A stretch of 64,000 bases of DNA from Watersipora subatra. Its lineage: Eukaryota; Bryozoa; Gymnolaemata; Cheilostomatida; Watersiporidae. Below, one piece after another: positions 9,401-59,200 of the stretch (positions are counted from its first letter, which is position 1; each line of letters starts with the position of its first letter). The stretch lies in NCBI RefSeq assembly GCF_963576615.1, contig NC_088717.1:707001-771000 (forward strand). The letters are read 5' to 3'. A program made the translations under genes and the position numbers. The notes under the pieces are model-generated. The model was given only the letters and a program-made list of their open reading frames with translations, was not told the origin of the DNA and did not search any database.

Positions 9401-12400
9401 TGGAGCCTCCTCGGCAAGGTATTGCAATATACTTGAAGTTATAGTTGATAACTATGGTAGGAGGGCACATCTGTCTGTCTGAGATGTCTCGGTTTGATTT
9501 ATGTTGTCAGTATATGTTTAGCAGTTTATTAACATTGCCTAATGTAAATGTATATGCATTTCAATCTGCAGCCCGTCAAAACAGGAAATAGAAAATTCTT
9601 ATTCTAGGTTGTCGCATTGTTAGATGCTAGAGTAATCCGAACACCAATGCTGTCTGTCTATCAACCTTCCAAGTTCTATGTATTAGTTGCTATAGCTCTC
9701 TCTCTCTCTCTTATCATGAATACGATCGGTATTTAGTTGTAGCAAGTATATGAAACATCATTAACTACAGGTCAACTACAGGTCACTGCATATTTGAAGG
9801 AGAGTTGGCATGTGGCCATCAGAACAACGGTGAAAACGTTCATATTAGACCAATTTTTAGTTGAAGTAGTCTTGTTGGCTATATTCAGTTAAAGGGGTCC
9901 TGTTGGGCTATATTCAGGTGAAGGGGTCTTGTTGGCTATATTCAGTTGAAGGGGTCCTGTTGGGCTATATTCAGTTGAAGGGGTCCTGTTGGGCTATATT
10001 CAGTTGAAGGGGTCCTGTTGGGTTATATTCAGTTGAAGGGGTCCTGTTGGGTTATATTCAGTTGAAGGGGTCCTGTTGGGCTATATTCAGATGAAGGGGT
10101 CCTGTTGGGCTATATTCAGATGAAGGGGTCCTGTTGGGCTATATTCAGTTGAAGGGGTCCTGTTGGGTTATATTCAGTTGAAGGGGTCCTGTTGGGCTAT
10201 ATTCAGATGAAGGGGTCTGGTTGGGCTACATTCAGATTAAGGGGTCCTATTGGGTTATATTCAGTTGAAGGGTCCTGGTGGGCTATATTCAGATGAAGGG
10301 GTCCTGTTGGGCTATATTCAGATGAAGGGGTCCTGTTGGGTTATATTCAGTTGAAGGGGTCCTGTTGGGTTATATTCAGTTGAAGGGGTCCTGTTGGGTT
10401 ATATTCAGATGAAGGGGTCCGGTTGGGCTATAGGGTCCTGTTGGGTTATATTCAGTTGAAGGGGTCCTGTTGGGTTATATTCAGTTGAAGGGGTCCTATT
10501 GGGTTATATTCAGTTGAAGGGGTCCTGTTGGGCTATATTCAGATGAAGGGGTCCTGTTGGGCTATATTCAGATGAAGGGGTCCAGTCGGGCTACATTCAG
10601 ATGAAGGGGTCCTATTGGGTTATATTCAGTTGAAGGGGTCCTGTTGGGTTATATTCAGTTGAAGGGGTCCTGTTGGGCTATATTCAGATGAAGGGGTCCT
10701 GTTGGGTTATATTCAGTTGAAGGGGTCCTGTTGGGTTATATTCAGTTGAAGGGGTCCTATTGGGTTATATTCAGTTGAAGGGGTCCTGTTGGGTTATATT
10801 CAGTTGAAGGGGTCCTGTTGAACTATATTCAGGTGAAGGGGTCCTGTTGGGTTATATTCAGATGAAGGGGTCCGGTCGGGCTACATTCAGATGAAGGGGT
10901 CCTATTGGGTTATATTCAGTTGAAGGGGTCCTGTTGAGTTATATTCAGTTGAAGGGGTCCTGTTGGGCTATATTCAGATGAAGGGGTCCTGTTGGGTTAT
11001 ATTCAGTTGAAGGGGTCCTGTTGGGTTATATTCAGTTGAAGGGGTCCAATTGGGTTATATTCAGTTGAAGGGGTCCTGTTGGGTTATATTCAGTTGAAGG
11101 GGTCCTGTTGAACTATATTCAGGTGAAGGGGTCCTGTTGGGTTATATTCAGTTGAAGGGGTCCTGTTGGGTTATATTCAGTTGAAGGGGTCCTGTTGGGC
11201 TATATTCAGATGAAGGGGTCCTGTTGGGTTATATTCAGATGAAGGGGTCCGGTTGGGCTACATTCAGATTAAGGGGTCCTCTTGGGTTATATTCAGTTGA
11301 AGGGGTCCTGTTGGGTTATATTCAGATGAAGGGGTCCGGTTGGGCTATATTCAGATTAAGGGGTCCTGTTGGGTTATATTCAGTTGAAGGGGTCCTGTTG
11401 AGTTATATTCAGATGAAGGGGTCCTGTTGGGTTATATTCAGTTGGAGGGGTCCTGTTGGGTTATATTCAGTTGAAGGGGTCCTATTGGGTTATATTCAAT
11501 TGAAGGGGTCCTGTTGGGTTATTTTCAGTTGAAGGGGTCCTGTTGGGCTATATTCAGATGTAGGGGTCCTGTTGGGTTATATTCAGTTGAAGGGGTCCTG
11601 TTGGGTTATATTCAGTTGAAGGGGTCCTATTGTGTTATATTCAGTTGAAGGGGTCCTGTTGGGTTATATTCAGTTGAAGGGGTCCTGTTGAACTATATTC
11701 AGTTGAAACAATCTGTTACCATGTTGTTAAGCGAAGGATTTTATGGAAATTACCAAATTTCTGGTCACTTGATTGTAACTGGCTAAAGCGTACAAGCATA
11801 TTTTGCTGTAAAAGACGTAAAAGACAGCCATGGTTTCAACCAATGAGTTGATGTGTTATTGTTGTAAAAAATGGTGTCACATCTTGTTTTGACATCACAC
11901 AGAGTAGAGTGCAGTAGTAGTACCCTTATGAGCAGTACTATCAGTAGTACTAGTAATAGTAGTAGTACTAGTAGCAGTTGTTGTAGTAGTAGTAATAGTA
12001 GTATTATTAATAGTAGTAGTAGTAATAGTAGTAGTTATAGTAGTAGTATTTGTAGTAGTAGTAGTTATAGTAGTAGTAGTTATAGTAGTAGTAGTTATAG
12101 TAGTTGTAGTAGTAGTAGTAATAGTAGTAGTAGTTATAGTAGTAGTAGTTATAGTAGTAGTAGTTATAGTAGTAGTAGTTGTAGTAGTAGTAGTTATAGT
12201 AGTAGTAGTTATAGTAGTAGTAGTTATAGTAGTAGTAGTTATAATTAAAGATGAGTTGAAGAAAGACGATTTGGCAGTTTATTGATAGGATAACTGTAAA
12301 CAAAATTTATAAAGTGTATTCAAATCAGAAAATAAAATTGTTGTAGATTAATAAACGAATATTGTTAGTGTCTCAGTCCCAAACTTTAAAAATGTTCAAC

Positions 12401-15400
12401 TCCAGTGTAATTAATTGTTGGGAGGACACTCATATATTAAGGGTGTGTCTCCTTCACTTCCACATGTGATGTTGAATAAATGACCGAGTCTCCTGGCTCT
12501 TCCAAATTCATGCATGTCTTGCTTATATTTTTTACTGTTCATAATGGTTTGTATGTCAGGAGTCGTCTATCATGAATGCACGCTGGCCAAGCACCCAACC
12601 TGTTGATGAGCTCTTGCTCAAGTCCTCCAACTATTTCATAGACTCTTGCCACGAGTTTAGACTGAGATACAAGCTATATATGGCCCCATCCAAAACTAAA
12701 GGTAAATCTCGTTGATGTAGTACTGAATGGTTTCACCACTTAGTGAAGCGCTAACGTTTTAGCCAAATCATAGACATAGAAAATAGTTAGAGGAGTGTTA
12801 AACGTATGGGTAGTAGGTTTGCGAGGCTATTCCACATCGGTTGCTCCCCCTAGCGATCAGTACATAGCCATTCATACCCCAACTTTTTCCCCAGCTATTC
12901 TGGCATATCCAGTAGGGTTTACCTTGCATCATCCCGTAACCAATAATTAGTATAGCGTGATCCAGCATCGAACTGCTACACTTCTCATCGTCATACACTC
13001 CTCCTCGGTAGAGCTGGAATGACGGCCGAGATGCGTCTATGTAAGCGACTACCGGATTCTTGAGGAGTGCCTTTTGTAGTTGTTTCTCATCTCCTGCTGT
13101 CGGTGCATGAAAGCCTGTGATGGTAATAGCTGGAGTGCAGAGAGACTTTTTGCATGCGCCAGCCGCGGTCGGATAGTCTGCTTCGGAACATAGTCCCTTA
13201 AGTTTGCCGATGCACGTGGGAGCATCATCAATTGTCTGGCAGCAGTCCTCCATCTCAGCAGTACTAAGTGAGACCAGTTTACCTCTTCGGATAAAGTTGA
13301 GGCTTTCAATCGACCCCAATGTGGCTAGCCAATCGGATTTGCCAAGTTCTCCCTGGTTTTTGACTGGGCTCACGGCATTGTGCTGTCTCCAGTCAAAGGA
13401 GGCTGGTAAAGACTGCGCAAAATGAAGTAAAACGGTTGCTAGACAGAATACGCTCAGGTTCATTTTCTCTCTTAGTTGATGGAGAAGATCCAGCACTTGA
13501 CGCTCTGGCTGTGCTCTATTAGAAATTGCTTTAGCTTTGATGACTGCTGATGGAATAGCACATTTACAGGAGTGTAGACAGGCTATTTTATTGACTATCC
13601 CCTATAATTGTGCAAGTGCTTCCGTTATATCATTTGTGTTTCCGATCAAACTGCTTCGTTAACAAAGCTGACCACTGCCGTTAATAAATTCTAGCTAAAT
13701 TACAACTAGCTAGGCTTATAATTATATATATTTATTATATAGTTATATGTATTTAACTGCCACTGACACGCTCGGTCGAGTACTATCCACTCCTGGCTAG
13801 TGTGCGAATGAACAGCTTTGTTTATTACTGTCATGGGGCTCAGCCTATCGGCATGACAAGCTCTGACATATCCTTCAATGGTCAGAGGCTCTTATTTCCG
13901 TCATGTTGATAGTTTCTCTCTATATTTGTCTACCAAGAACACTCGTGGTTATGTATTTAACACTGTATACCACTAATAGGAGGGGTTTTTGTCTATAAAT
14001 TATTGCAAAATATTAATAGAGTTTATTGCAAATACACTGACTGAGGAAGTATATTTTACTTTAAAGGTTAACTTGCACTAAATTTAGTAGATTCTATCAG
14101 AAAGTATCAGTATGTCTTTACCATGTATATCATTTGCAATTGTTTTTGATGTTTGAGCTGATCTAACTGCCAGGATGTTTGATCATTACAATTGATAAAA
14201 CTTGATCGCAGTTGAAATGCTTAAAAGAAAAATACTGTAAAACCTCTTTTTGAGTGCCATGTTTGAGCTGATCTAACTGCCAGGATATTTGATGATTACA
14301 ATCGATTAAACTTGATCGCAGTTAAAATGCTTAGAAGAAAAATACTGTAAAACCTCTATTTGAGCGCCATGGCGCTCTATTTTTCAACCCTTCTCACTTA
14401 GTGGCAGTCAAATGAAGATGGCGTTCAAATAGAGGCTGGCGTTGTATTTTTCAAATAGCTCGCCAGAATTTGAGAATATAAATTTAACTATTTTACCAGC
14501 GAATGTCCTTTAGGATGCCATAAATCTGCTAACTTGTCAAGGATCTTTAAGTAACCATGCATTGAGAAGCTGAGAAATATCGCCATCAGTTGATATCTCT
14601 CGCTTACAATTAACCTGCGATGAGATTATAGCCTGTGGCCCTAAACCGTGCCTTGCAATTTCTTGTGCTTTCAATTTGTTTATTTCATTTTTTCAAATTT
14701 GAAGATGTATTTTCATTTTATAATTATATTTAACGATGTTGTATCAAAGGTCATTGCACTCATTGATATGTTTGCTACAGTTTGCAGCCTAAACTTTTTG
14801 CTTTTTATATGCGATGGAAAAGGAATTATGAGCGTTGACCCATTGTAAGCCATGTTAAGATAACTGCAGGGATGCTATCAAATAATATGCTGTAAGTCTG
14901 CAATTTTATAAGTTATATTAATATTCTATCAAAGGCTACAAATATATGTATTCAAAAACAAGTGATATAAATTTTTTTCCAAACCATTTTTGAGCAGAGC
15001 AAAACTTTTACACCTTGCATTTAGCCCAAACGCAACTCGCAAAAGTTTGCTCACAAGCGATAAACTTTTAGCAGCACAACTTTCAGCCTAAAACTAGTCA
15101 TCCATATACCATCGTGACCATTTTACCACCGTTTTTCACATACCCTAAAACACTTTTATTTCGCTAGTATTTAGTTTCGTGAGTAGCACACAGAGTAAAA
15201 TTTAGCTGCAACTTAATTTCGCGGTTCTGATGAGTACGAAAATATAGTGATGTGAAAATAAATGCAGTGGAAAAAACAGATTACATTCCTCAGGTCCAGT
15301 TCGCTAATAAGAAAAAAATTCAATTTGGTACTAGTTCGTATTTGTAAACCGCAGGTTGAAATGTGTGGGTGAGATCGACAATTCAATTTGATCACTTGCT

Positions 15401-18400: not shown

Positions 18401-21400
18401 TCTCTCATGGTACAGCAGACTCCTAGGGTACTGGTAATCCTTACTACTAGCTTATTGAACTTTATAAAGGCATCGATATCACAGTTCGATATCGACAGTT
18501 CAAAGTCATTTTCACCTCTAGAAAGAGGAGAGTCCTCGGTTCGATTCTTTCATGAAGTGTATAGTTCATATTTGTCTGCTCCTGCTTAGTGTCTGTCTCC
18601 TGTCACTCTTAGTGACTGTCTCCTGCCTCTCTTAGTGACTGCTATGTTCTCGTGTCAGGTACGAAGAACACTGTCAAGAGGAAACCGTCACATGCCGTTG
18701 TCTGGGTAGCGAAGAGCTTTCCTCCATGGCAGGCACTTATATTGAGCACCCTCCAACGGCTGCACAAGGAGAACGGAGGCATGCTGCCAGAAAACAGCAT
18801 AATTGCAGCAAACCTCAAAGCTGAAAAGTCTCTTTCCAAATATATGAAAAGGGTGATGCCTTTCGTAGCCTTGCTGAAGGTCAGTATTGGGCAGTCTTTA
18901 TCTGCTGCGTTACCTTGTATTGCCGTGATGGGTTGCATATTCACTCATTCATATAGTATCATTAGTTGGTAGAGGTGCAACGGCCCTGCTAGAAGACCCT
19001 CTATGTTGCCATCTACAACTCGTGTTTCTGGCAACATGTTTGTTCAACTTAGTGATGGTGTATTTTGCGATTCTCGGACTATTTCTGTGTGGAATCTATT
19101 TGGTAAATATACAGCCGGACCTCTACTTATGAAAGATTCCATCTACAAAATTTTCAAGTTTCGAACTGCATCTTGGTAGAAATTTTGTTTCGACTCACGA
19201 AAGATATTTGTAGTTTGTAAGAAAAGCCTTTTGTACTTTGGCTCATTTGTTAGTTTCATTCCTTGGCTCGTTTGCTTCGCGTCTGGAGTTATCATGTCTT
19301 GCATATATCATATACATGGTAAGACAACTTTCGTTTTTTGCAATTCAAGTTCTGCGTTTTTTGCATGATCACAGTTTTCAGTTCGTGCCAATGTGAAATC
19401 TTTCTATTTACGTTTGTAAAAACATTTATTCCGAACAAAACAATACAACCCCCACTTCATCTGACTGCCATTCACCAACTTCCCATTTTTTTAGTCTTGT
19501 CTAGACGACGAACACGAGAGGTAAACAAACATATCGTTCATAGTTTTTACTACTTATATCTCTGTAGCTTCTTTTTTCGGCTTTGTACATAGTCTATTAT
19601 GAAGTAATATAATTCTAGCATGTGTTTTTCACAGGTGTTGACCATTACATGTATTTATAAATTATACAAATGTTATGTCTGTACATATATTAACTTTATC
19701 ATTTGTTAACCTTTGGTTCATATCTCTGTCTTGGCATCCCTCGAGTCATTGTAGTTGTACAGAATCCAAAGTGACTCATCATATTTTTCCAAAGCCAATT
19801 GTCTTGCAGGAGAACTTAGCTAAACAGGGTCTCTCTGCCCTCCAGACGTCTTCTGAGCTTGACGAACTTGCTATACTGCAGAGCTATGAGGAGTATATCA
19901 CCAATACACTTGATGTATGTACATGCCTTTTCCAATTTCGTAAGGGTTCCTCATTTTAATTACAAATTTCTGTGTTTTTTAGAGTGAATGAATTTACTAA
20001 AATTGGCAGGATACAAGAAGGGATTTTTGTGTTATCAATAACTCTGAAAACTCTTGGTGTTATCTCCACATTGACTTTTTTCTTGGCTTATAAATGCAAA
20101 GACTTATACTCATAAATCTTTGCATTTTTAAAGTTTTAATTGAGATATGTTTCCTAATAACTTAATTTCTTAGTTTACCTGTTTCAAGTCAATCTGTCAC
20201 TCATCTCTAGTACTTCTAGGTCAGAACCTTTAGGTAGTTATCTCCTCTTTCAACAGCTCATTCATCTTTGTGAAGTTATGTAGTTGTCTCATCCTCTAGT
20301 AGTTGTCTACTCTTCATGCAGTCATTTCATCTCATTGCTTTGATCAAAAAGGTTTTAATCTTTTGGCTCCAAACCTAGTGCTGTACAAGGATATGGCATG
20401 CGCTGCAGGTGCCTGTAGTCATATACATATCCTTTGGTTATGCTTACATCCACTATTTCTATTTATATCGGCTGAGTCTACTAATAGGTATAACTGTTAA
20501 AGTATTCAATCATGCAGTCTAGAGCATACTCAAGAAATTAGTAAGTTTGGTTCTTCTTGATGGAGAGTTTCTGAAAATGTTAAGCTTAGTTGCTATTTTT
20601 TATATGGATAAAGGTTACATTTTGCTATATTTCAGTTCAAAGCTTTTTAAAAATACTAAAAATTACTCGATTCTGGAGTTTTCTGCGTTTGATCTTATTG
20701 CATGACAGTTTTATTGGAACCTTTGTTATTGTAGATGTAAATGGGTTTTTATTTAAACAAATTTGGAACAAAATTATTTTCACAGCTTTCTTGACGTCAG
20801 CTGTCATTTTGGCATTGATTCAGCATGTTTGCAGCTATCAGGCAGCAATATTTATTTTGACAGCCATTATTAAAATATTTTTTAGGTTTGTATCATTTTA
20901 ATCATTAAAATTTGAGCTTCACTGAAGTAGATTTTTCTGATCAATTGCTCATCATGTTGTTAGAGCGGCAGCAGCAATAATATAATAGTAATATATTATA
21001 TGGATGTTATTTATTCGTATTAATTACCAGATAAGTTTTACATATTTGTCTCAAGTGCAGCACCTAGAAGTCCTAACTTGAAGAACACAGTTTTCATAGA
21101 TGATCGACTGCTAATAAAAGTTTAATCCTTCACCACTTTTTAGGCTTATCAGCTATCACTTACATTTTACCTTTCAAGACCTGATTATGATTTTTTAATC
21201 TGCTGCTCTAGTTGGAAGAAATACAAGTTCGCTACTCCGACTCTCCTGAAGCGGACAGCAGAATTCAGGAAGAATGCTGCCCTGAGAAGCCATTTATCGA
21301 GTTTGTGTCTGTGCCATCTGCCACGGTTTACCTCGCCAATCCACAAAGTTGCAACGCTACTTTCGGTTTGGAGCTGAGCCTCTATAAAAACGATACACCT

Positions 21401-35700: not shown

Positions 35701-38700
35701 TTAAGATATACGTAGTCCGAAAACATAATGCGACACACAAGAAAATTATCACAGAAAGTTATGATAGTAAATACGATGCAACCGACTTGTTTGCGCTAGA
35801 GATGTCGACATTCTCTACCACAAAACTTTTGCTGCTAAAAAGGAAATATAATTAAAAAATAAACAAATTGTAGCTATAGCGTCCAAACAATAACTACATT
35901 CAATAACGCAATTTAAGCAATTGCATCGTGTGTACTATGTTGATTTGCACTTATACTTTTACTATTGTGTGTCATTATACGTCTCTTTGACTATACTAAT
36001 TGCAAAAGCTGCTGAGATCGTGCTCGTTAGCACGATTCTAGCAGCGCAGAATAATTCTGTGTGTTTCAATCATTTCGTGATTTTGGTTAGAACCAACGGA
36101 AATTTTGTTACGTGTTGCCGTACCGTTAGTAACTTATTATTTGTTCATAAATCACCACGGTCAACCGAAACTTCACTAGTTTTGGTTTGAAGCATCTGGC
36201 CCAGCATTTATAGACTGCCAAATAATTAAAGCAATGAAATGCCACGACATTGACAGCAAATCCGTTTCCAAGTCTGTGACTGACAGTGATTATTAAAGGC
36301 AATCTCGGTCTATTTTCCGTACAAGAAATATAGCTCTAAAAACCTAAGACGGCTCAGAGCCATCGAGTGTGGCTCTGAGACGGCTGTCACTCTTCGCGGA
36401 GTAATCAGCAACGCTCCCAAACATCACTAATATGTTTGTGAAGGTCGCTGGTTGAGCCATGCTTTTGGTTAGCAGAAGTTCAAACCTAGCGAGTTTCAGA
36501 TTTTTAACGCAACCCAGTGCCACCAGTATAGATATTTGTATTAAAATAACGAATGTGAAGAAAGAGGTTGTTTTGGTTACCAATTTGAAAAAGGTGACAG
36601 TGATTTTAAAAGTGACGACAGTGATTTTAAAAGTGACGACAGTGATTTTAAAAGTGACTATTCTGACGACAGCTTTGTGTGGTAGGACCCCCAGTTATTA
36701 AAAATAATAAAAACAGTTTTTCTCTAGACTAAATATAAAAAGGATTATTAGAAGTAGGTTTAAAGATGAAACTTCATATTGTCAGCGGGGCGGGGTGTTA
36801 ACAACAGTGTTAACAGCAGTGTTAACAACAGTGTTAACAACAGTGTTAACAGCAGTGTTAACAACAGTGTTAACAACAGTGTTAACAGTAGTGTTAACAA
36901 TAGTGTTAACAACAGTGTTAACAACAGTGTTAACAGCAGTGTTACAGCACGGACACACTCACATACTCCCCATTACCATTCGGGTATCAGCCCGACTTCT
37001 CTTGCTCTACATGAAGATGTCTAACTGTGGCTTATTCATAACTTATGTAACTTATGTAACCGTGATCTTAATTCATAACTTAACTAACTATGATTGGTTA
37101 GTCGAAACAGTCTTTCTATAACTCTCTCATTTCATCCCTAGCGGACAGATAACAAAGACATACTTGTTCTTTCGCTGCACTCCTGCTAAGTATGTTGTCG
37201 GTCTCGCGTTGTCGTTAGCGAGAAGGCAACCATCCGGTGGTAGGCCAGTCGGCTCTGGATACAAGACGCATGGATTCTCTGACAGGGTATTTATTGCACC
37301 CTGTATTGCTGCAGGAAAACAGAAAGAACACTTCATCATAAAAAATATGTATTGCTAAATTTAGAGTGGCACTGAAGCAGCCTCTGTTAATAATGTGGGA
37401 TAGCCCACCCTTGGGGCTTGCTTGCTGATTTTCAGGCACAGCACCTTAATTAGCAATGCTATTGTGTATTGGGGTCAGCTCCACTACTTTCACGGCACAA
37501 ATTGATTAAATATTTACATATGTATTTTTTCTTTTTTTCATTATTACTAATTTCATATTGTTTATCGTCGATGCAAATAAAACAACAACGCGAAAACAAA
37601 CAAGCTTCATAGCTCATCTACTTGAAATAGCCTCACTATTCTCACGGCGCATATCTCTAAAAATCAAAAATACTAATTACATGTATTTTCTTGTTTAGCT
37701 AGTAAAAAGCTCGCTGGTTAAAAGTATTGTAACAAAAGAAAAACATAACACTTCTTTTTTAAATATTATCTGCTAACCCAACCAAAAAGAATGCTTTATC
37801 AAGTCTGTTAGGAATATTTAATATTTATATAAAATTTAATATCTTCTCAAAACAAACAATCTGTAAGCCGAACAACATTTTAGAAAACAAGGTTGAAAGG
37901 TCGACAGAGCTGGTAGCCTAATTGAAAGCAGAAGTAATTCTCTCATGAAGTTGACGGGCGGGCAGTTTAGTCAGAGAGGTTTAGTCAGAGAGGTTTAGTC
38001 AGAGAGGTTTAGTCAGGCCGGTTTAGTCAGGGCGGTATAGTCAGGGCGGTATAGTCAGGGCGGTATAGTCAGGGCGGTATAGTCAGGGCGGTATAGTCAG
38101 GGCGGTTTAGTCAGGGCAGTTTAGTCAGGACAGTTTAGTCAGGGCAGTTTAGTCAGGACAGTTTAGTCAGGCCGGTATAGTCAGGGCGGTATAGTCAGGG
38201 CGGTATAGTCAGGGCGGTTTAGTCAGGGCGGTATAGTCAGGGCGGTATAGTCAGGGCGGTATAGTCAGGGCGGTATAGTCAGGGCGGTTTAGTCAGGACA
38301 GTTTAGTCAGGGCGGTATAGTCAGGACAGTTTAGTCAGGGCAGTTTAGTCAGGGCAGTTTAGTCAGGGCAGTTTAGTCAGGACAGTTTAGTCAGGGCAGT
38401 TTAGTCAGGGCGGTATAGTCAGGGCAGTTTAGTCAGGGCAGTTTAGTCAGGACAGTTTAGTCAGGACAGTTTAGTCAGGACAGTTTAGTCAGGGCGGTAT
38501 AGTCAGGGCGGTATAGTCAGGGCGGTATAGTCAGGGCGGTTTAGTCAGGACAGTTTAGTCAGGACAGTTTAGTCAGGACAGTTTAGTCAGGACAGTTTAG
38601 TCAGGGCGGTATAGTCAGGGCAGTTTAGTCAGGGCGGTTTAGTCAGGGCGGTTTAGTCAGAGAGGTTTAGTCAGGACAGTTTAGTCAGGACAGTTTAGTC

Positions 38701-41700
38701 AGGGCGGTATAGTCAGGGCGGTATAGTCAGGGTGGTATAGTCAGGGCGGTATAGTCAGGGCGGTTTAGTCAGGACAGTTTAGTCAGGACAGTTTAGTCAG
38801 GACAGTTTAGTCAGGACAGTTTAGTCAGGGCGGTATAGTCAGGGCGGTATAGTCAGGGCGGTATAGTCAGGGCGGTATAGTCAGGGCGGTATAGTCAGGG
38901 CGGTATAGTCAGGACAGTTTAGTCAGGACGGTTTAGTCAGGACGGTTTAGTCAGGACGGTTTAGTCAGGACGGTTTAGTCAGGGCGGTTTAGTCAGGACA
39001 GTTTAGTCAGGACAGTTTAGTCAGGACAGTTTAGTCAGGACAGTTTAGTCAGGACAGTTTAGTCAGGACAGTTTAGTCAGGACAGTTTAGTCAGGACAGT
39101 TTAGTCAGGGCGGTTTAGTCAGGGCGGTTTAGTCAGGGCGGTATAGTCAGGGCGGTATAGTCAGGGCGGTTTAGTCAGGACAGTTTAGTCAGGGCAGTTT
39201 AGTCAGGGCGGTTAGGTAAAGAAAGGCATTATAGCATTTAGTGCCAGGTGCAACTGATTCATAACAAATGTAATAGCATATGAATTGACGTATAATTGCT
39301 GCTCATGAAAAGCTTTTAGTAATGAATTGTTATGGCAGGTAGCTGCCCTGATCATCGAGTTTAGTAATGTAATCAACGCTGTATAACTTTAAAATGTACC
39401 GAATGTGAAAGTTGGCGTGAGATGATAGCCAGTCAGAAATTGGTTCAATAGCGAATGGAATGAGGCAAGCGCTACAGAGTTTTGACTGAGCGCATAGAAA
39501 GCTACAATATATTGATCAGTGTGTCATGGCTTACACACCCATAGAATAAGTTGGATGCTAAAACTGCTATACGATTGATCACAGGCCATGTTTCGACAGT
39601 GCAAAGACAATTGTGTGAGTACGGCTACTGGATAGCTTTGTCAACATTGATCAAGTGACTTCCCTGGAAACCTATTCAAGTAGCAATCGCCCTGCAATCA
39701 TAAAACAGTTCCCTTACACAGACCAAAAGCAAAAGGGTGTACAGAGCTGTTATGTGGGTGGTCTTCAGCAAAGAGATAATCTAATCTACAATTTATATTT
39801 GTAATGTTGACTTTGATGGATTAAACAGGAATTCATAAATATAGCTCATTACCTTCCTGAGGCTGGGCATCCTTACACAGGGCGCTGCCAGCTGCCTTCA
39901 CGAAATCATTGAGTTGACTATCACGACAGGAGATTTTCTCCTTGCACTCATTCACTTGGCTGCAATTTAAAGCCATAATAATATAACAATAAGATAGGTA
40001 ACTATTGTGGTGCCTGGTGGTGGGAGAGTAGAAGGGCAATAAAATGAAAAGAGAGATATATATACCAAAAAGGAATTGGAGAGATAGGAAACAGTAGAAG
40101 ACATGGGTGAATGTGCTACCTGTTGTGATCGGAACACTAGGGGTGGTGGCAGATCTAAGATAAGAATTAGACAGAAAATAGGCAAGGAAATAGGCAGAGC
40201 ACAGTTTTCTGCTCTGTTGGTATCCGCAAGAATATCAGAGAAAGTACTCGATATCTAAGGAAAGGAGACCTACCAGATACTAGTATGTTCCAGACAAAAA
40301 GCTGAGAAAAATCAACAACAACAAGATAGAATAAGATAACATAGTCTGTATCAGATAAACAGACAGCTGAGTATATTGTCCTGTTTTAAAGCACAAAGCC
40401 TTCATGGAGTTACTCCATGATTAAATGAATGATTGACTCAAGAATAACAATAGATGTATAATTCTACAGAGTCCGTACGATTCATCGAACTGCAACCAAT
40501 AAATGTTCCTATAATGTTGTCAGCTCACTCTTAGCATAATTATATTAGACATTTAATGGGCCAATCTAGGTCATGAGTCATACAAGGGAGGAGAGGCAGC
40601 ATCTCTTTGATGCTAATGGCTGCCTTTCATGGACGGCGAAAGAAACTATCTGACTAGGAAGCATACTGAGGAATAGGAATCTTTATGATACTCTTGTTTT
40701 CCACGCAAAATGAACAAGAGCTGTGTCCGCTATAAAACTTTCGTAAGTCACTCCGAGATGCGTCATGTAACAGTTAACTGAACACTACACACAACAACTA
40801 CTTTTACAACATCTCAATCAAGCAATGACCAACTACAAACACAAGTCTTTGTAGTTGGTCATCATACAAAAAATGGGGCATATATTAGTCACTCTAATAA
40901 AAGGTTATAGCACTCCTAGCTATAGCCTGCTATAGCACTCCCAGCTATAGCAGGCTATAGCTAGGAGTGCTATAACAGGCTAGGCTTCAATTAGTTGGAA
41001 AAAATTTAATAGCTGTCAAAATGAAAGCGCATCAGCCATTGGCAGACTTGAGGAAATCTCATGAAAGTCAAGCATAGAGAGATTCATACCGATTTAAAAA
41101 GTTATTGATAGATTCGAGAGTTTCCACGCTATTTGAGGTGTCGTCAGGTTTGATTGTCGTTTACTTTCTAAATGGTTTTCTCATTCTTAAAGCAGGGAGA
41201 GAAGATTGAGACAAACAGACGTGAGACAAACAGACAGACTTGCAGACAGGAGACAAACATACAGACAAACAGACGGACTTGCGGACAAGAGACAAACAGA
41301 CAGACTTGCATACAGGAGACAAACAGACAGACATTGAGTGGTAGATGCTTGATTGAATATGATTGTTCTTTCCAGCTAGTTATTTACCTATTTAGTTATT
41401 TATGTACGTAGTCAAATGCACCAAAAACAAATTTATTAAAAAGCTGTCAGCAATTGGAACAAAATACATGAGCAAGAATATTGTTGGCTGATAAATGCGT
41501 TGGTTTGTTTAAAGAGACAACAAAACATCGATAAGTGTGCAACTGGTTCACGGCAAGTGACTTGTACTTACGAGCAGTACGTAGACAGTAAAGGGGCATC
41601 AAAGTTGTCTTTGTTGAATACTCCGTCAAAATCTATAACCTGATTGATGATTTGTATCTCATCTTCAAAAACTGTTCCACCGTTAGATTGGCATTCTGAG

Positions 41701-46804: not shown

Positions 46805-46810
46805 TTTATT
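46805..46810 (-). promoter_or_regulatory. Candidate poly(A) signal of the CUB-TIR gene
   Basis: AATAAA on the minus strand about 180 bases after the stop at 46988. Confidence 0.55.
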
Positions 46811-46987: not shown

Positions 46988-47241
46988 TTAGTTTTTTTTG
47001 CTCGATTTTCTACCTTCTTCTTCGTCTCCACCTTCATCGTCCTGTTTTTCTTTCGCTGACGCTGCCTTGACAGCGAGAGCATTCAGACAATTCTGTAGCT
47101 CTTCTGCGTACCTTTTTCTGCTATGTAGCTCGTATGCAGGATTCGCACCGATAAGAAATTCCAGCCACGGCGCCAGCTCAAATTGCTCCTGGAGGCATAT
47201 TGGAACTAGGGGCTTCTTGCGTTTATCAGCGAACTCAATCT
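46988..47241 (-). CDS. CUB-TIR exon 9 (TIR end and charged tail)
   Basis: The acceptor is GATGTTACAG. It reads EIEFADKRKKPLVPICLQEQ, WLEFLIGANPAYELH and YAEELQNCLNAL, then a charged tail (DDEGGDEEEGRKSSKKN) and TAA at 46988-46990. The frame is also open upstream to 47353, so an in-frame longer form from AG at 47320 is possible. Confidence 0.82.
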
Positions 47242-50200
47242 CTGTAACATCATGGCTAGGATTACAAAGACTATATACATCGCTTTCCTGTACCATTGCT
47301 GTCCGACTAGAACTTTCAACTGCAATCAGCCTCAGAAATATGTTTGAGTGCAATCTGTCCCAGAAGGCTATTCAAATGCAATCATACCCAATAGTCTGTT
47401 CGACAAGCAGTCTGTTCGTGAAGTCTGTTCAAAGGGCAATTTGTTCAACATTTTAAAAAATTAACCATTATAAATAATATCAATTATTTGATACTGTTTC
47501 AAAAATAGGAAAAGATTTTCAACTTATAAGACATAAATATCTTTAAAAGATAAATGGTATTAAAATTTAACCAGCTGATGAATATACTACCCAATAAAAT
47601 ATCACAATGAAGTAGTGTAAAGGATTTTCCCTAATACCTACGTATTAATACACCTTCAAAAACTCCCGGGCTATAGTTTAAATGCTGTCAGACTAATATT
47701 AACCCTAATATTTAAATAGGCCTAGATAACTACTTAAAACTGTGACGAACAGTGTTAGTGTAACCCCATAACCTTGAAAGGATGACTTTCTGGCTATTGA
47801 TAATGCTCACCGCTACACTAAACTGTGACGAACAGTGTTAGTGTAACCCCATAACCTTGAAAGGATGACTTTCTGGCTATTGATAATGCTCACCGCTACA
47901 CTAAACTGTGACGAACAGTGTTAGTGTAACCCCATAACCCCGAAAGGATGACTTTCGTGCTATAATTGCCACTTCAATAACGTAGTCCTATGTAATTGAG
48001 ACAATCAATTGACATAGGATAATCAACTTGACATAGTGATATGATGATTATGGAAAGTTGTACAAACTCAAACAATCTCTGAGATAATCAGATTTGATAG
48101 AACACCGCTGTTCGGTGATAAGCCGTTACAGCCTAGAATAGCATAGCATGCAACTAAAATCTCTTATCCACAATTTAGATTGATAGATATAACAACAAGC
48201 CTAATTTCACAGGTTATAATTCCTTTTATTTACTAATTCAGACTAAGACATATCTTGAATATAGAATAAGACTTAGAATGATATTCAGATAAGAGCAGGA
48301 AAAAAGACTGAGTAAAAACAAGGTAACACATTATTTTATACCTTCTAAACATAAATGGTAGACCAATAAACTTAAAGTCTCTATATACTTGGTCCAATCA
48401 TTATCCTTTCATGTGTAGGCTATTTACTCTGTAGTTCCGGAGTCAGCAGAAATAGCAAGCTGACCACCGTTCTTAGCAAACAACATGATTCACCATTTTG
48501 TAATTTCAGTCTACCGGTTGTTTGTCATGAAGAAGGCAAAATGCTCAGCCAAACAAAAATGGCCAACATATCACATACATAATATATGCTATAAATCCAT
48601 CACAGTAGACAATCACTGGTAATACTCACAGAGGTCAGTCATCAGTTATCAGTCTATAGTTGATAGTCTAGCAGCTAATTTACCTCCATGCTATATCAAT
48701 CATTTGAAAATGGCTGGCTAGGACGAAGCAGATTGCATTTATATGAAAAAATCCTGCATCATATTTGTACATTATTCAGTTGTTTGCTAGTAGTGGTTAT
48801 AAAATAACACTACTCCTCTTGCAGTTCACAAGGATTAGTTATATTTGTGAGTTGCAAGAGAACCAAACTCTTCTTTTAAACAGACTGAAAATAAAAAAAG
48901 GAGGTAGGAAAAGAGGTAAGGGGAAGGAAAGGGAGAAAGGGAAGAAGAGAAGGAAGTGCAGGGGAGGAAGAGAAAGAAAGAGAGAGAAAGAGAGAGAAAG
49001 AGAAAGAAAAAAGGATGAGGGGAGAGAATGAAAAGGAGGGAGATGGCGAGGAAGACGTCTCAGTTACACTATATATAGTAACCCGAGTTTGTATGGTGGA
49101 ACGACAACTACAAACTAGATGAAGTAAAAAGAAATGACGAAAGTTGTTTATGATTAAAAGTAATCAAGATATTTGAACGAAATGTGATTTAGGAGTTTTC
49201 TGTTTTAGCATAAATCATTTTAGTTATTTAATATAACTAGCCAAACGAAACAGCTTGAGCATTTATGTGCTTGAAAATTCATTTTTAATGTCATTATGCT
49301 TCAACTGATGAGTTGTTGTGTAAAATGTAAATATTTCCAGAAATATTTTGATTTAACTATTAACTTACACAAGGGCTAACTTTTTCATGTTTTTTAAAAT
49401 ATTATATGCACATCATATATGTTACAAATACTTAAAAATGAAAGAAAAGCCTAATTATTTTAACACGATTTCATTATATTGCAACATGACCTTAGTAACA
49501 TGAAGGTGTTGATAGCTCCTTCTTTGTTATTGACCAACTGCTTGCATTTTCTCACTATTAGTATTAAGCATGTATTTATCATTTCTAACATAAAATAAAT
49601 TTGAAATAAAGCAATTTTTGTCCATAAAATTTGTGCTGCGCAGCTTTAAAATTTATGTGGGGGTGTAAGTCTACCACTTGGATTGTATTTCATGATGAGT
49701 GCATGAAAAGACAACTCTAGCAAAGCCCAGTATAGCCCTCCCATTACAAAACCGTCTATTGAATAGCAAGAAGCATGTTGAAGTTGTTTACAGTAGACAA
49801 GTTAGAAGTTGGCTGCTTTTCTATCATACTTTTCACACCTCTAATTCGCATGCTGAATGTTGTCAAACAATGAGTATATACACACTTACCTTTCCTAACA
49901 ATGAGTATATACACACTTACCCTTCCTGCAATTAATACTCTGCTGGTACTTCTCAGTCAGCACAGGAATGACAGCGGCTGAGTTGTCCACAGCGCTGCCA
50001 TAGAGTCAAACGTAGAGTTGCCTAAATACAAAAAATTGAGCTTGAACAGATAACTCCAAGAAGACTAAGCAAGGATCAGCTACAAGAAGTCCGGATGGCG
50101 AAAGAACATTTGTGAAACAATAGAATTGTGGTAATGTGGTCACTGCACTCTACATATCTGATTTGACAAGAAAGAATAACTATTCGAGCTAATCGACAAT

Positions 50201-53200
50201 ATACTGTTGTTGGTAGAAGTTTGGAAGAGTTGAGAGATAGCATTTTATTTCGAGTAGTAATCTTCAAACCTTTGTGCATTTGTTCGACGTCTATCCATAC
50301 TCTGTATCCAGCTTTACGTAATTCCTTTCTGAATTTCAGCACATTTTTCTTCACATCCCATTGGTAGCTGATCATAATATGGGGTAGTACTGTAATTATA
50401 AATGGTAGCTGATCATAATATGGGGCAGTACTGTAATTATAAATGGTAGCTGATCATAATATGGGGTAGTACTGTAATTATAATTGGTAGCTGATCATAA
50501 TGTGGGGTAGTACTGTAATTATAATTGGTAGCTGATCATAATATGGGGTAGTACTGTAATTATAAATGGTAGCTGATCATAATGTGGGGTAGTACTGTAA
50601 TTATAATTGGTAGCTGATCATAATATGGGGTAGTACTGTAATTATAATTGGTAGCTGATCATAATATGGGGCAGTACTGTAATTATAATTGGTAGCTGAT
50701 CATAATATGGGGTAGTACTGTAATTATAATTGGTAGCTGATCATAATATGGGGTAGTACTGTAATTATAATTGGTAGCTGATCATAATATGGGGTAGTAC
50801 TGTAATTATAAATGGTAGCTGATCATAATATGGGGTAGTACTGTAATTATAATTGGTAGCTGATCATAATATGGGGCAGTACTGTAATTATAAATGGTAG
50901 CTGATCATAATATGGGGTAGTACTGTAATTATAATTGGTAGCTGATCATAATATGGGGCAGTACTGTAATTATAATTGGTAGCTGATCATAATATGGGGT
51001 AGTACTGTAATTATAATTGGTAGCTGATCATAATATGGGGTAGTACTGTAATTATAATTGGTAGCTGATCATAATATGGGGTAGTACTGTAATTATAATT
51101 GGTAGCTGATCATAATATGGGGTAGTACTGTAATTATAATTGGTAGCTGATCATAATATGGGGTAGTACTGTAATTATAAATGGTAGCTGATCATAATAT
51201 GGGGCAGTACTGTAATTATAAATGGTAGCTGATCATAATATGGGGCAGTACTGTAATTATAATTGGTAGCTGATCATAATATGGGGCAGTACTGTAATTA
51301 TAAATGGTAGCTGATCATAATATGGGGCAGTACTGTAATTATAAATAGTAGCTGATCATAATATGGGGTAGTACTGTGATTATAAATGGTAGCTGATCAT
51401 AATTTGGGGCAGTACTGTAATTATAAATGGTAGCTGATCATAATATGGGGCAGTACTGTAATTATAATTGGTAGCTGATCATAATATGGGGTAGTACTGT
51501 AATTATAATTGGTAGCTGATCATAATATGGAGCAGTACTGTAATTATAAATGGTAGCTGATCATAATATGGGGCAGTACTGTAATTATAAATGGTAGCTG
51601 ATCATAATATGGGGTAGTACTGTAATTATAATTGGTAGCTGATCATAATATGGGGTAGTACTGTAATTATAATTGGTAGCTGATCATAATATGGGGTAGT
51701 ACTGTAATTATAATTGGTAGCTGATCATAATATGGGGTAGTACCGTAATTATAAATTGTAGCTGATCATAATATGGGGTAGTACTGTAATTATAATTGGT
51801 AGCTGATCATAATATGGGGTAGTACCGTAATTATAAATTGTAGCTGATCATAATATGGGGTAGTACTGTAATTATAATTGGTAGCTGATCATAATATGGG
51901 GTAGTACTGTAATTATAATTGGTAGCTGATCATAATATGGGGTAGTACCGTAATTATAATTGGTAGCTGATCATAATATGGGGTAGTACTGTAATTATAA
52001 ATGGTAGCTGATCATAATATGGGGCAGTACTGTAATTATAAATGGTAGCTGATCATAATATGGGGTAGTACTGTAATTATAATTGGTAGCTGATCATAAT
52101 ATGGGGCAGTACTGTAATTATAATTGGTAGCTGATCATAATATGGGGTAGTACTGTAATTATAAATGGTAGCTGATCATAATATGGGGCAGTACTGTAAT
52201 TATAAATGGTAGCTGATCATAATATGGGGTAGTACTGTAATTATAATTGGTAGCTGATCATAATATGGGGTAGTACTGTAATTATAATTGGTAGCTGATC
52301 ATAATATGGGGTAGTACTGTAATTATAAATGGTAGCTGATCATAATATGGGGTAGTACTGTAATTATAATTGGTAGCTGATCATAATATGGGGCAGTACT
52401 GTAATTATAAATGGTAGCTGATCATAATATGGGGTAGTACTGTAATTATAATTGGTAGCTGATCATAATATGGGGCAGTACTGTAATTATAATTGGTAGC
52501 TGATCATAATATGGGGTAGTACTGTAATTATAATTGGTAGCTGATCATAATATGGGGTAGTACTGTAATTATAATTGGTAGCTGATCATAATATGGGGCA
52601 GTACTGTAATTATAATTGGTAGCTGATCATAATATGGGGTAGTACTGTAATTATAATTGGTAGCTGATCATAATATGGGGTAGTACTGTAATTATAAATG
52701 GTAGCTGATCATAATATGGGGCAGTACTGTAATTATAAATGGTAGCTGATCATAATATGGGGCAGTACTGTAATTATAATTGGTAGCTGATCATAATATG
52801 GGGCAGTACTGTAATTATAAATGGTAGCTGATCATAATATGGGGCAGTACTGTAATTATAAATGGTAGCTGATCATAATATGGGGTAGTACTGTGATTAT
52901 AAATGGTAGCTGATCATAATTTGGGGCAGTACTGTAATTATAAATGGTAGCTGATCATAATATGGGGCAGTACTGTAATTATAATTGGTAGCTGATCATA
53001 ATATGGGGTAGTACTGTAATTATAAATGGTAGCTGATCATAATATGGGGCAGTACTGTAATTATAAATGGTAGCTGATCATAATATGGGGTAGTACTGTA
53101 ATTATAAATGGTAGCTGATCATAATATGGGGCAGTACTGTAATTATAATTGGTAGCTGATCATAATATGGGGTAGTACTGTAATTATAAATGGTAGCTGA

Positions 53201-56200
53201 TCATAATATGGGGTAGTACTGTAATTATAATTGGTAGCTGATCATAATATGGGGTAGTACCGTAATTATAATTGGTAGCTGATCATAATATGGGGCAGTA
53301 CTGTAATTATAAATGGTAGCTGATCATAATATGGGGTAGTACTGTAATTATAAATGGTAGCTGATCATAATATGGGGCAGTACTGTAATTATAATTGGTA
53401 GCTGATCATAATATGGGGTAGTACTGTAATTATAAATGGTAGCTGATCATAATATGGGGTAGTACTGTAATTATAAATGGTAGCTGATCATAATATGGGG
53501 CAGTACTGTAATTATAATTGGTAGCTGATCATAATATGGGGTAGTACTGTAATTATAAATGGTAGCTGATCATAATATGGGGTAGTACTGTAATTATAAT
53601 TGGTAGCTGATCATAATATGGGGTAGTACCGTAATTATAATTGGTAGCTGATCATAATATGGGGTAGTACTGTAATTATAAATGGTAGCTGATCATAATA
53701 TGGGGTAGTACTGTAATTATAATTGGTAGCTGATCATAATATGGGGTAGTACTGTAATTATAATTGGTAGCTGATCATAATATGGGGTAGTACTGTAATT
53801 ATAATTGGTAGCTGATCATAATATGGGGTAGTACTGTAATTATAATTGGTAGCTGATCATAATATGGGGTAGTACTGTAATTATAATTGGTGGCTGATCA
53901 TAATATGGGGTAGTACTGTAATTATAATTGGTAGCTGATCATAATATGGGGTAGTACTGTAATTATAATTGGTAGCTGATCATAATATGGGGCAGTACTG
54001 TAATTATAAAATACTGTCTATCTTTAAATTCAATTGGTATTATCATATATGCTCTGGGAAAGTAGGAAATACTTGCAAATGTTTTGGATTTATTTGATAA
54101 AGAAGTAATTTGATTGGCCTTTGAGTAAACTCTCATAGGCTAAAATGTTAAACGTCTAGTTTTACTTCTAATGAAGCGATATCATTCTTAACTCCATTTT
54201 TTTGTTCACATAAATGACTGCCTCAGACTCAAAGCTCCTGTTGGAAAATCTACAAAACTAGATTTTTTTCTAATTTCAGATGAAAGCCTTTTAATTAAGA
54301 TCAGCTATAGACTTGAGCAAGGGTTAGCAACTCTAAAAAAGCAAGGGTTAGCAACTCTGAAAAAGCAAGGGTTAGCAACTCTGAAAAAGCAAGGGTTAGC
54401 AACTCTGAAAAAGCAAGGGTTAGCAACTCTGAAAAAGCAAGGGTTAGCAACTCTGAAAAAGCAAGGGTCAGCAACTCTGAAAAAGCAAGGGTTAGCAACT
54501 CTGAAAAAGCAAGGGTTAGCAACTCTGAAAAAGCAAGGGTTAGCAACTCTGAAAAAGAAATAGCAAAGTGGCATCAGTGAAAGAGTTACAATACTCTGGG
54601 CAATAAAGCAGTGATAGAAACATTGAAAAGAAGAGGTCTGAGGATAGTGTCTTGTAGTACTCCCATTTCCATATGTTCAGAATAACTTTTTTCTACTTAA
54701 AAAATCTGTTTCGTTGTGAAAGATAGGATGACAACAAAGATAAAACAGATTCATTGAGTTGATAAATTTTTTAGTTTCTTTTGTAACAAATCATGGTTCA
54801 CAAGGTTTAAGCATAACAAGCATACGAGTCATCTAATTTCATTTGCCAATCATCTGAAAAACGCAAAGTCATTTACTCAAACGATTGATTCGTTCTAAAG
54901 CCAGACTGTCTGTCATAGAAAAAACCACCAAAATCAAGGTGAGCCGAGAATTATTTAATTATGTTCATCTCAAATATGTTTAATAAAATCGGAAGCAAGA
55001 AAGTAGAGCGATAATCAGTTTTGTTTTACTTTTGTAAATTGGTGATTACAACGCATGTTTCAGACATTGAGGTAAATATCATATCTATAGACTGTCATTC
55101 ACACGTACGAAATGAGGTAAATATCATATCTATAGACTGTCATTCACACGTACGGAATGAGCGATGCCATGAAATTCACTAGCAACTGCTTCATCGTTGT
55201 AGGATTTTATTTCTTCCTCCTTTCAGCTGACAAAGTTACAGTTTGTTTTCTACTTGTCTCAACCGATATTCTGATACATGTGTTGAGGAGAATATATCAT
55301 ACTGCTGTGAATATGCAGCCGTATGATATATTTTCCTTAACATATTCTCCTTAACATATTCATGTGATATGATATGTCACCTTTAGCTGTGGAGGTTCCG
55401 AGATTGGATCCAGTGCTGCGGAGATTTTTCCCTGCTAGATTTTAACAAAGGTTTGACAAAAGGACAAATCCTGAAATATGTTTATATAGATATAAGATAG
55501 AGATATATATGTAAAATATATATTTGAAATATATATATGTGCTGTCATGTTTTTAATATCTAATTTTGATTTGAAATTTTCTGTAGCTACTCTAAGTGTA
55601 CTTTAACGAAACAGTCTAATAAGGCTTCTATTTAAACCCTGCAGAAGGTGTTGAATATCTATAGATGTGATAGATTATCTATAACAATCATCTACAGTAA
55701 AGTTGAAGTAGATTTGTTTGTATACTTACTCTTCTTTACTGCTTTGACTTGAGGTTTAACCGGCTCTTTAGGTTTCATTGGAGCGGGTGCAAGATCCATG
55801 CCTGAAATATTTAAGATCTCAAGCAACTTCAAGATCTTACAAATTTGTAGTAAGTTTTTTGGCTTAAGCCTAAGGCTAGTAATCCAAAGGCTAGTTAGAC
55901 ACATATTAAGGCTAAGACTACTAAGGTTAGCTAGACACATATTAGTTGTTTATCAGTGCTGCCACAGGTGATGTTCAGGCACAGTTTATCCTTACCAGGT
56001 GTCCATGCGGCAGCAGTGGGAGCGGACGGTCGAGAATTGACAGAAGATGGTGGAGAAAAACTTGATGGGGCTACAGAAGAAGGGGGAGGAAAGTTTGCTG
56101 GTGCTCGGGTAGAAACTAAAGGATACTTTGATGGATAGGCTTGCTGATGCGTTGGTTTAGATGCTATCGCTAATGATTCGGCCATGACCCTGTAATAGTA

Positions 56201-59200
56201 GTGGAATGCAGAAAAAGTCAAACACCATAACACTCACTGTGCAATAGTAATCTATATATATTTCTCAAAATATGTCGTATATCTGTCTGTCATTCCGGCT
56301 ATAGCTATTATTAGAATAGCTGTAGCCGGACAACAATGCAGACGCAAAGTCATGGCTTACCGCCATTAGAAGCCTATCTTATTAAGCAGCTTACTAGAAT
56401 TTTCCATTGGCAATGTGCCTGGCTAACAGATTGAAAGTTACAGTTGTTTGACAAAGTTTTAAAACCTTTACAGTTGTTTTTATTTTTCTCTTAATTTATT
56501 TCAACTACACAAAACACTTCTCTCATGATATGTAGTTTAAAAGTTAGAATTGGAAATGTTGTTATATATTAAATACAAATAAATTTTCTGTCCAAAGACT
56601 TTTTTATTACCCGGGCAACGCTGGGGAGCGCAGCTATTAGTAATATATAACTCAATACTTGTGCTGTAAATCTAGCTTTTTCATTAAAATGTTAACACTG
56701 CTGGTGTCAATCAAAAGTAGCTAGAAACCTGTAGCTATACACGATTGTTAGATATGACATAAAGTCTTATTGCTACACCCTTCTTTAAATGGTTCATCGC
56801 AACTCTAATATTCCTGAAGGAATACCTGCTTGTGTTGTCAGAGCTCTTACAGCAGCCGCAGCATTTCACCATTGCGTATATAATAGGAATCAGCACCACC
56901 TTGGAAAAAAGTTATTAGGTAAAATATTTTTGACAAGGTCACTGTCCGGTCAAACCAATTTACATCTGAGACAATCACTTGAAGCTTCAATACTATAACT
57001 TTATCATAATATATTTGTTTGCATAACTAAAAACTGTAAGTTTATTTCCCTGTTTTATTGAAAAGTTTACACTGATAGGATGAGTAGTAAGTTTACATTG
57101 ACAAAATAGGTTATAAAGTTATACTGACAAAATAGGTTATAAAGTTATACTGACAAAATAGGTTATAAAGTTATACTGACAGATTTAGATATAAAGCTAT
57201 ATTGATAGAATAAGCTATAAAGCTTTACTCACAGAAAGACTTATAAAATAAATATACTCACAGACCTACGGCAGCCACGATAATTATAATGTACACCAAT
57301 TCAAGTGTTCCTCCACTGCTAGCTGAGGAAGTGGAGGTATCTGCCAATACAAGTAGACATGTGCATGTTAAATGCATAAGACTGCTCTGTTATCACCTTT
57401 CAATCGCCCATTCACCTAAGCTGAAATTTCTCTGAGTTAAAAATTCTTTTCTGCGTCTTCGCAGAACTTTTTTATTCACTATTTTTTCGAACTTTTGATA
57501 TGCGCTATAATTTATACAAAAAACACAAAGTTAAATCGTTCTTTCAGTCTCATACTTTGTGTAGTAGTTGTTGAGCCACTCGCATATGGATCAACATCTG
57601 TGAACGATATGACGAAACCTTTTCCACCATCTCCAGAACTTGAAGAGTTGAAATAGACTTTGGCAGCATCTGACGAGCCAATATATTCAAAAGGATCTGT
57701 ACCGCACAGGTAGTCAGCCCACACATCTGATTCATCGCGATAGTTGACAATCTGGAAGAGCATTAATGTCTGTTTGTCTGTTTGTCTATTTGTCTCAAAA
57801 TACAAACATGTTTCACGTGTGACTTTTCTATTAAATGAATAAGAGAGGAAAATATCAGCGTGTCAATAAATGACTCTGCCGTCAACAAAGCAGGTTCCCA
57901 AAAAACACAGGGTCAGTGTTTTTCTAAAGTAACAGCTTTTTTCTATCAACGCTATTTTCTACTTTTCTCATTTTATATTTTTTTCCTGATATCTTCTCTC
58001 ACCCGCTCTCACTAGAAACCTTTCTCTGTTTGCCGTCTTTGTTCTATACTTAATTTCTTGCATTTATATTTTTATATTTACTTTTTCGATTTTTTCTCAA
58101 CTTCATTGTTTAAAAAAAGCCTTCATTTTAGTTTTAAGCGAGTTCTATTAGCTTTATAAGTGTGTCATCCTACCCAGGTCTCTTAAATATATTAGGTTTG
58201 AACATATTCATAGCCCAAGATGAAGGGAGGCTTCAGGACTCACCCGTAAATAATCATAGTCTTCACACGGTAAACTGGGATGTTTGTAAATATCCATGGT
58301 AATGGACAAGGATATCACCTGCCCTTCTCCATAAATGCCGAGACCCCATATGCAGTTCCTGTCTGGCCCATAATTCGTCTGGAAAAAGAATGTAATTTGT
58401 CCACTCTTCACCTGAAGCCATGTTTCACCGTTACAATCTAAAAATGTCCCAAGACATTGCTAAAAAGAGACTTGACTCACTGCATTACCACTAGTCAGTC
58501 ACTAAAGCCTCAGGCAAAAGCCAACATAGTTGAAACCAAGTTCAAGGTGAAAAAACATCTGTCTAAAAACTCGTTGTTATATCTTTTGAAACAGCTCCAT
58601 ATTGTAGTCACTGTAACATTGATTTGTAGCAACAAGTTTAACAATTCTTTTTGTGTAACTTTCTCAGTGTAGGAAAGAGTTTACTCTAGATGTCTAGGTT
58701 TACTCTATATGTCTAGGAAGTCTGTAAATAAGTATGATGAGTGTAGGAAAGGGATTACTCTATGTTTACTCTATATGTCTAGGAAGTCTGTAAATAAGTG
58801 TGATGAGTCAGAATAATTCATCCTAAATTGGGTAGTCTTTGCTGATCACACGCATTTATGCATTTAGGTATGTACTGTCTGAATTCCCGGTGTTACACGA
58901 GTAATAAAAAACTTTTTGCGTAGAAAATATATTTTTATATATACAACATTTCCTATTCTAATATTTTAATAAAGGAGTTGGTTAATTTCTGTGTGTGTTT
59001 GGTCAATGCATAATTCAAATATTAAAAAGCTCAAGGCATTGTTGAAAAAACAGATTGTTGAAAAACATTTCTTACTTCTTATGCTACACATTCATTCAAG
59101 ATTTAAAACATCTTATAAACAGTGGCAGGTAATCTAGTTGCCATTAGCTAAGTTTCTTTACCTAATAAATTTGAGTAACTTAAGCTAATATTTCAATCTT

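Follow-up and report, generated by a model that had tools for sequence, protein, structure and literature searches.

Minisatellites that carry a splice site of their host gene have a precedent in human IFI6 (6-16), which was reportedly described in 1995 (Turri et al.) as containing a minisatellite of splice donor sites, its unit said to measure about 12 bp and to recur some tens of times. Here we describe an array on the acceptor side in the bryozoan Watersipora subatra, found in a 64,000-nucleotide stretch of DNA (NCBI RefSeq assembly GCF_963576615.1, contig NC_088717.1, positions 707,001 to 771,000 of the forward strand; hereafter the window), where a 41-bp unit that appears to span the border between an intron and an exon in a CUB-TIR receptor-like gene is repeated in tandem. 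As reported for IFI6, the tandem unit holds a splice site of the host gene, lies at an exon/intron border, offers many alternative sites and belongs to an immune-related gene; the IFI6 array reportedly consists of donor sites, whereas the present one joins an acceptor to the start of a coding sequence in 89 copies over 3.65 kb. Given that precedent, the remark in a first-pass annotation of the window that no coding splice junction amplified to this extent had been described is probably too strong. What would be new relative to IFI6 is the acceptor side, the presence of coding sequence in the unit and the greater length of the array.

Two further classes invite comparison. With intronic minisatellites, or variable number tandem repeats, the array shares head-to-tail units, block duplications, high identity and variant repeats, but its 41-bp unit includes a coding splice junction. 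With tandem acceptors of the NAGNAG type and with poison exons linked to nonsense-mediated decay, it would share competing 3' splice sites and unproductive products with stops; it differs in presenting dozens of near-identical putative sites at 41-nt steps.

Tandem Repeats Finder (TRF) reports positions 50360-54009 as a repeat of period 41 with 89.0 copies, 96% match and 0% indels, and independent phasing along the minus strand resolves the repeat into 89 units, each exactly 41 bp long, running from 54010 down to 50362 and falling into 13 sequence types, so that the 89 copies of 41 bp listed in the first-pass annotation are borne out. The array and its proximal copy are as follows.

50362..54010, minus strand: 41-bp minisatellite of 89 units (TRF and phased units).
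50362..50402, minus strand: proximal copy, the coding intron/exon junction with exon start at 50389, supported by an in-frame exon join and as the only one of the 89 copies from which the frame stays open across exon 7.

Because all 88 intervals between neighbouring units are exactly 41 bp, the regular array is not a chance pattern. Minisatellites are head-to-tail units of roughly 10-100 bp in many copies, and 41 bp repeated 89 times without indels is of this kind, with a mean pairwise identity among units of 96.8%. The consensus unit consists of 13 nt of intron 3' end, ATTATAATTACAG, followed by 28 nt of exon start, TACTACCCCATATTATGATCAGCTACCA; the unit begins with A in 51 copies and with T in the remaining 38, which include the working-junction copy, and the last (proximal) copy continues into exon 7 sequence, ATGGGATGTG. 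This composition agrees with the earlier description of the unit, but an acceptor AG in every copy, which that description implied, does not hold: AG is present in 84 of the 89, and the other 5 read ACGG.

The proximal copy acquires its meaning from the gene around it, for which nine minus-strand exons were assigned, totalling 1,276 nt.

58244..58437, minus strand: exon 1 (the first of those found), first half of the CUB domain (CUB 0.013 alone, 1.9e-7 joined).
57556..57751, minus strand: exon 2, second half of the CUB domain (no Pfam match alone; joined CUB match).
57270..57340, minus strand: exon 3, first half of a hydrophobic helix; donor GTAGGT, score -0.22.
56826..56899, minus strand: exon 4, second half of the hydrophobic helix (hydrophobicity judged by eye).
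55996..56189, minus strand: exon 5, proline-rich stretch (no Pfam match on its open reading frame).
55730..55801, minus strand: exon 6, donor AGA/GTAAGT, phase 1.
50270..50389, minus strand: exon 7 (120 nt), which opens the TIR domain; donor GTTTGA (TIR_2 2.1e-6 on its open reading frame).
49921..50021, minus strand: exon 8, 101 nt, middle of the TIR domain.
46988..47241, minus strand: exon 9, end of the TIR domain and stop codon; AATAAA at 46810.

The end of exon 3 was shifted by hand from 57262 to 57270 to keep the helix in one continuous frame, and later counts use 57270. Joined, the exons give a protein of the order CUB, hydrophobic helix, TIR, with 424 amino acids and an X at a frame change in exon 8. 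Against Pfam it matches CUB (1.9e-7, residues 1-114), TIR_2 (1.6e-19, residues 271-361) and TIR (1.8e-5). The TIR_2 match of the joined protein compares with 2.1e-6 for the open reading frame with exon 7 alone, and the frame of the first CUB exon alone stays below the family cut-off at its 0.013. Pfam searches covered part of the window, namely 10 of 151 open reading frames in one set and 10 of 115 in another. Between CUB and TIR lies a putative membrane helix, LVYIIIIVAAVVLIPIIYAMV, judged by eye. No exon with the protein N-terminus or a signal peptide was found in the window, in which one weak candidate lies at 63378-63330, and the joined protein has no match among PDB sequences at 0.001.

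Exon 6 closes in phase 1 at its donor, 55730, and its junction with 50389 preserves the frame. Together with domain matches that extend across the joins and the sole open frame among the 89 copies, this upholds the earlier proposal that the proximal copy is the coding junction, and reading frame and domain evidence thus support the view that the array unit represents an acceptor/exon junction of the TIR gene. The names intron 6 and exon 7, taken over from the first-pass annotation, hold as counts that start at the first exon identified here, but the true numbers are probably higher. The array is accordingly one that adjoins an exon and whose unit holds a splice site of its host gene, the proximal copy being the in-frame acceptor of exon 7. 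Since the coding part of the unit encodes the start of the TIR domain, it would seem to be older than the repeat; for the same reason we rejected the converse order of events, in which a pre-existing minisatellite was later exonized.

Joined in silico to each of the 89 copies, exon 6 leaves an open frame for the proximal copy only, while all 88 others lead to a stop 11 codons past the junction. The roughly 88 additional 3' splice sites of the first-pass annotation thus shrink to 83 putative ones, the non-proximal copies that keep AG, and all 88 would be unproductive. With the donor at 50270 the proximal copy yields a 120-nt exon, and every step upstream adds 41 nt. On its 5' side the working site is preceded by 3.6 kb of array copies with no unique sequence among them. 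A choice for it would have to come mainly from downstream, from exon sequence and the donor, which makes exon definition the likeliest mechanism. A recursive splicing site was considered and rejected, as the junction reads CAG/TACT with no AG/GT and the overlapping GT scores -6.75. The predicted RNA fold of the last copies with exon 7 was no better than that of shuffled sequences (z -0.53; 57 of 200 shuffles folded equally well or better). As a separate observation, with the donor cut-off set to 2 the intron contains two short overlapping cassette-exon candidates (51 and 54 nt).

We think it fairly likely that a duplication spanning the junction grew into a minisatellite that is carried as a passenger and tolerated through exon definition or through decay of the gene. 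The unit suggests that a 41-bp segment straddling the intron/exon junction of the CUB-TIR receptor-like gene was tandemly duplicated and would then have expanded to 89 copies through the usual turnover of minisatellites, with whole blocks of units duplicated as well. Judging by reading frame and domain matches, the exon-adjacent copy would have remained the coding junction, and the 88 intronic copies, which give only premature stops in silico, would be decoys whose products, if they are used at all, would presumably be cleared by nonsense-mediated decay. Productive splicing, if it occurs, would most likely proceed by exon definition, given that only the proximal copy provides the 120-nt exon. 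The array itself would be a passenger in a minisatellite-rich genome, role-free as far as demonstrated, and it would be tolerated either on account of a proximal site that remains functional or through a loss of function already under way in this gene copy.

A functional alternative is that near-identical acceptors compete and that array length sets the share of transcripts lost to stops, thereby tuning receptor dose. The retention of AG in most upstream copies and the uniform occurrence of stops fit such a throttle, and so does a second array in the same intron, of ten acceptor-like sites, from each of which exon 6 likewise runs into a stop.

54316..54557, minus strand: array of 24 bp x 10.1 that shares its intron with the 41-bp array (TRF).

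If the gene is expressed, the 84 AG-bearing acceptors and these ten upstream sites would act as a length-dependent throttle, with choice governed by distance from the downstream donor and array length setting the output of full TIR receptor, a scenario to which we give a slim chance. The non-proximal copies show no sign of selection, however, and there is no excess conservation of AG or of the exon part: among non-proximal copies AG is lost in 5 of 88 and residues of the exon part are altered in some, and such lack of protection for AG and coding meaning is as expected for functionless copies. Other arrays in the window, for instance one in an intron of the neighbouring leucyl-tRNA synthetase (LARS) gene, also lack such a relation to an assigned junction. 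We therefore regard a dose-tuning role as improbable.

Several observations weigh against the passenger account. Splice sites were scored with generic acceptor and donor matrices, whose frequencies are general ones, and with a second, local acceptor matrix built from the 17 other assigned acceptors. In the generic matrix the array acceptor of exon 7 is the lowest of the 18 assigned (-1.81; next -1.78), whereas in the leave-one-out local matrix it is ninth lowest of 18 (2.2), and 17 of 104 intronic AG sites outside the 41-bp array score at least as high as the best array copy. The array acceptor is plain, not strong. The unit of the 24-bp array reads GCTAACCCTTGCTTTTTCAG and combines a CTAAC that resembles a branch site with a pyrimidine tract and CAG. 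Eight of its ten AG sites score 8.44 in the local matrix, where the best of the 18 assigned acceptors has 7.67, and 5.63 in the generic one, where they exceed 16 of the 18 (the top two being 6.17 and 5.95); the remaining two reach 7.3 and 6.2 locally and 4.62 and 3.8 generically. The stops that follow these sites come after 10-82 codons, and all ten, lying upstream, would have to be skipped. Both the use of the proximal copy and the decoy status of the others are, moreover, read from sequence.

A further difficulty lies in exon 8, within which the TIR frame shifts, such that its first and second parts are in different frames and all three frames contain stops; tblastn likewise returns the pieces 50031-49996 and 49993-49922 in different frames. 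The unbroken frame through the TIR domain expected of a TIR receptor is thus missing from this sequence, and the frame change, which may be a sequence error, a null allele or the mark of a young pseudogene, is easier to reconcile with a dead gene than with a functioning one. The donor of the same exon is duplicated.

49866..49927, minus strand: duplication of a 31-bp segment (2.0 copies, TRF) across the donor of exon 8, the segment holding 7 nt of exon and 24 nt of intron.

The first donor copy scores 6.2 and the second (AAG/GTAAGT) 7.69, and splicing from the second would lengthen the exon by 31 nt and bring in a stop, as read in the frame of the second half of exon 8. It is possible that the same kind of amplification is here beginning at a donor site. 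The first-pass annotation mentioned neither the exon 8 frame change nor the duplicated donor, nor the ten acceptor-like sites of the 24-bp array.

These features are what would be expected were this gene copy a young pseudogene or null allele in which splice-site repeats piled up without selection, an explanation that overlaps the last clause of the passenger account and for which the low generic scores of exon 7, whose acceptor is the lowest assigned and whose donor is second lowest of 8, also speak. Yet the frame change is the only lesion found in all of the assigned exon sequence, the other joins keep the frame (for exon 3, by choice of the donor), exon 9 has an open frame as far as its stop codon with an AATAAA beyond it, and a one-base sequence error would look identical. 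We consider this explanation unlikely.

The two possible states of the gene give the array different uses. Experiments on how one of several equal 3' splice sites is chosen mostly rely on small engineered duplications, and the array offers a natural set of 84 near-identical AG-bearing acceptors at 41-nt steps, with one donor and a single productive outcome, in which upstream context offers little to tell the acceptors apart. If the gene is transcribed, junction reads would measure distance dependence and exon definition directly; if it is dead, the locus is an example of a minisatellite taking over a splice junction once selection lapses.

The order of unit types bears on how the array arose. 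Adjacent units are no more similar than shuffled ones (P 0.57), which argues that single-unit slippage was not the main mode. Set against the array shifted by 37 units, a 20-unit block, selected after inspection, finds an identical partner for 17 of its units and a partner with a single changed base for the remaining 3, and the longest identical run in the string of unit types is 9, compared with at most 7 in 200 shuffles. The pattern fits growth by copying of blocks rather than of single units. With units about 97% alike, one might suspect that the length of the array is an artefact of a collapsed or expanded repeat in the assembly, but the 13 unit types follow a non-periodic order and the imperfect copy of the 20-unit block is unlike a simple contig-end duplication; we judge such an artefact very improbable.

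The wider window is itself rich in tandem repeats, which occupy 13,285 of its 64,000 bases (20.8%), or 16.0% of the remainder when the 41-bp array is set aside. This repeat-rich setting makes an accidental origin likely. For comparison we used the other gene with assigned exons, whose edges were set by eye and checked for GT and AG.

1241-26314, plus strand: LARS gene, nine exons assigned (Pfam: Anticodon_1 4.7e-14, Leucine--tRNA ligase ubiquitin-like domain 2.3e-12).

Two of the 17 junctions of the TIR gene lie within a repeat (acceptor 7 and donor 8), compared with none of the 17 in LARS. For the two genes together, 2 of 34 is below the approximately 5 expected if repeats fell anywhere, and junctions are therefore not targeted by repeats. 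The LARS introns hold many minisatellites, among them a 29-bp array at 9859-11707 with about 64 copies (TRF rows of 19.9 and 44.0), which sits in the intron 9418-12560 away from both junctions.

As a class, the minisatellites of the window were also compared with splice signals. Twenty-two arrays with at least 3 copies and a period of at least 12 were hand-picked from 63 TRF rows, leaving out the rows at 40906 (70% match) and 63228 (57% match) and two-copy rows, and same-length non-repeat segments of the window served as reference. For acceptors the Kolmogorov-Smirnov (KS) test gave p 0.16 and Fisher p 0.026, with p 0.75 for the 41-bp array and values below 0.02 in two arrays only (3444 and 54316); for donors the KS p of 0.0085 stems from a shortage of high p-values, and Fisher gave 0.22. 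We accordingly rejected the idea of these minisatellites as a class of splice signals, there being no convincing effect, although two of four nominal p-values below 0.05 leave room for a weak one. Among the 22 arrays the 41-bp array alone is known to hold an assigned junction, exons having been assigned for two genes only.

Searches for relatives of the gene and the unit returned little. No paralogue was found in the window by tblastn at E up to 10, the matches being exons and array units; 35 bases of the unit had no exact match in viral and prokaryotic contig collections, which given their content is little informative; and neither Rfam at gathering scores nor ARAGORN gave a match in the window. 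Elsewhere in the window, an array of 14 bp x 89.6 at 37960-39213 is G-rich on the plus strand, and its near-equal copy number to the 41-bp array is surely a coincidence.

Two minor observations concern LARS. A 23-bp x 2.5 repeat at 18585-18641 (plus strand) stops 17 bp before the AG end of a LARS exon acceptor (18659) and sits in the likely branch-site and pyrimidine region of that acceptor. On the opposite strand of a LARS intron, an uninterrupted open reading frame at 12801-13601 (minus strand) encodes a papain-family protease (Peptidase_C1 1.1e-51), in which the usual catalytic-cysteine motif reads GELGKSDW, and the protein is probably inactive.

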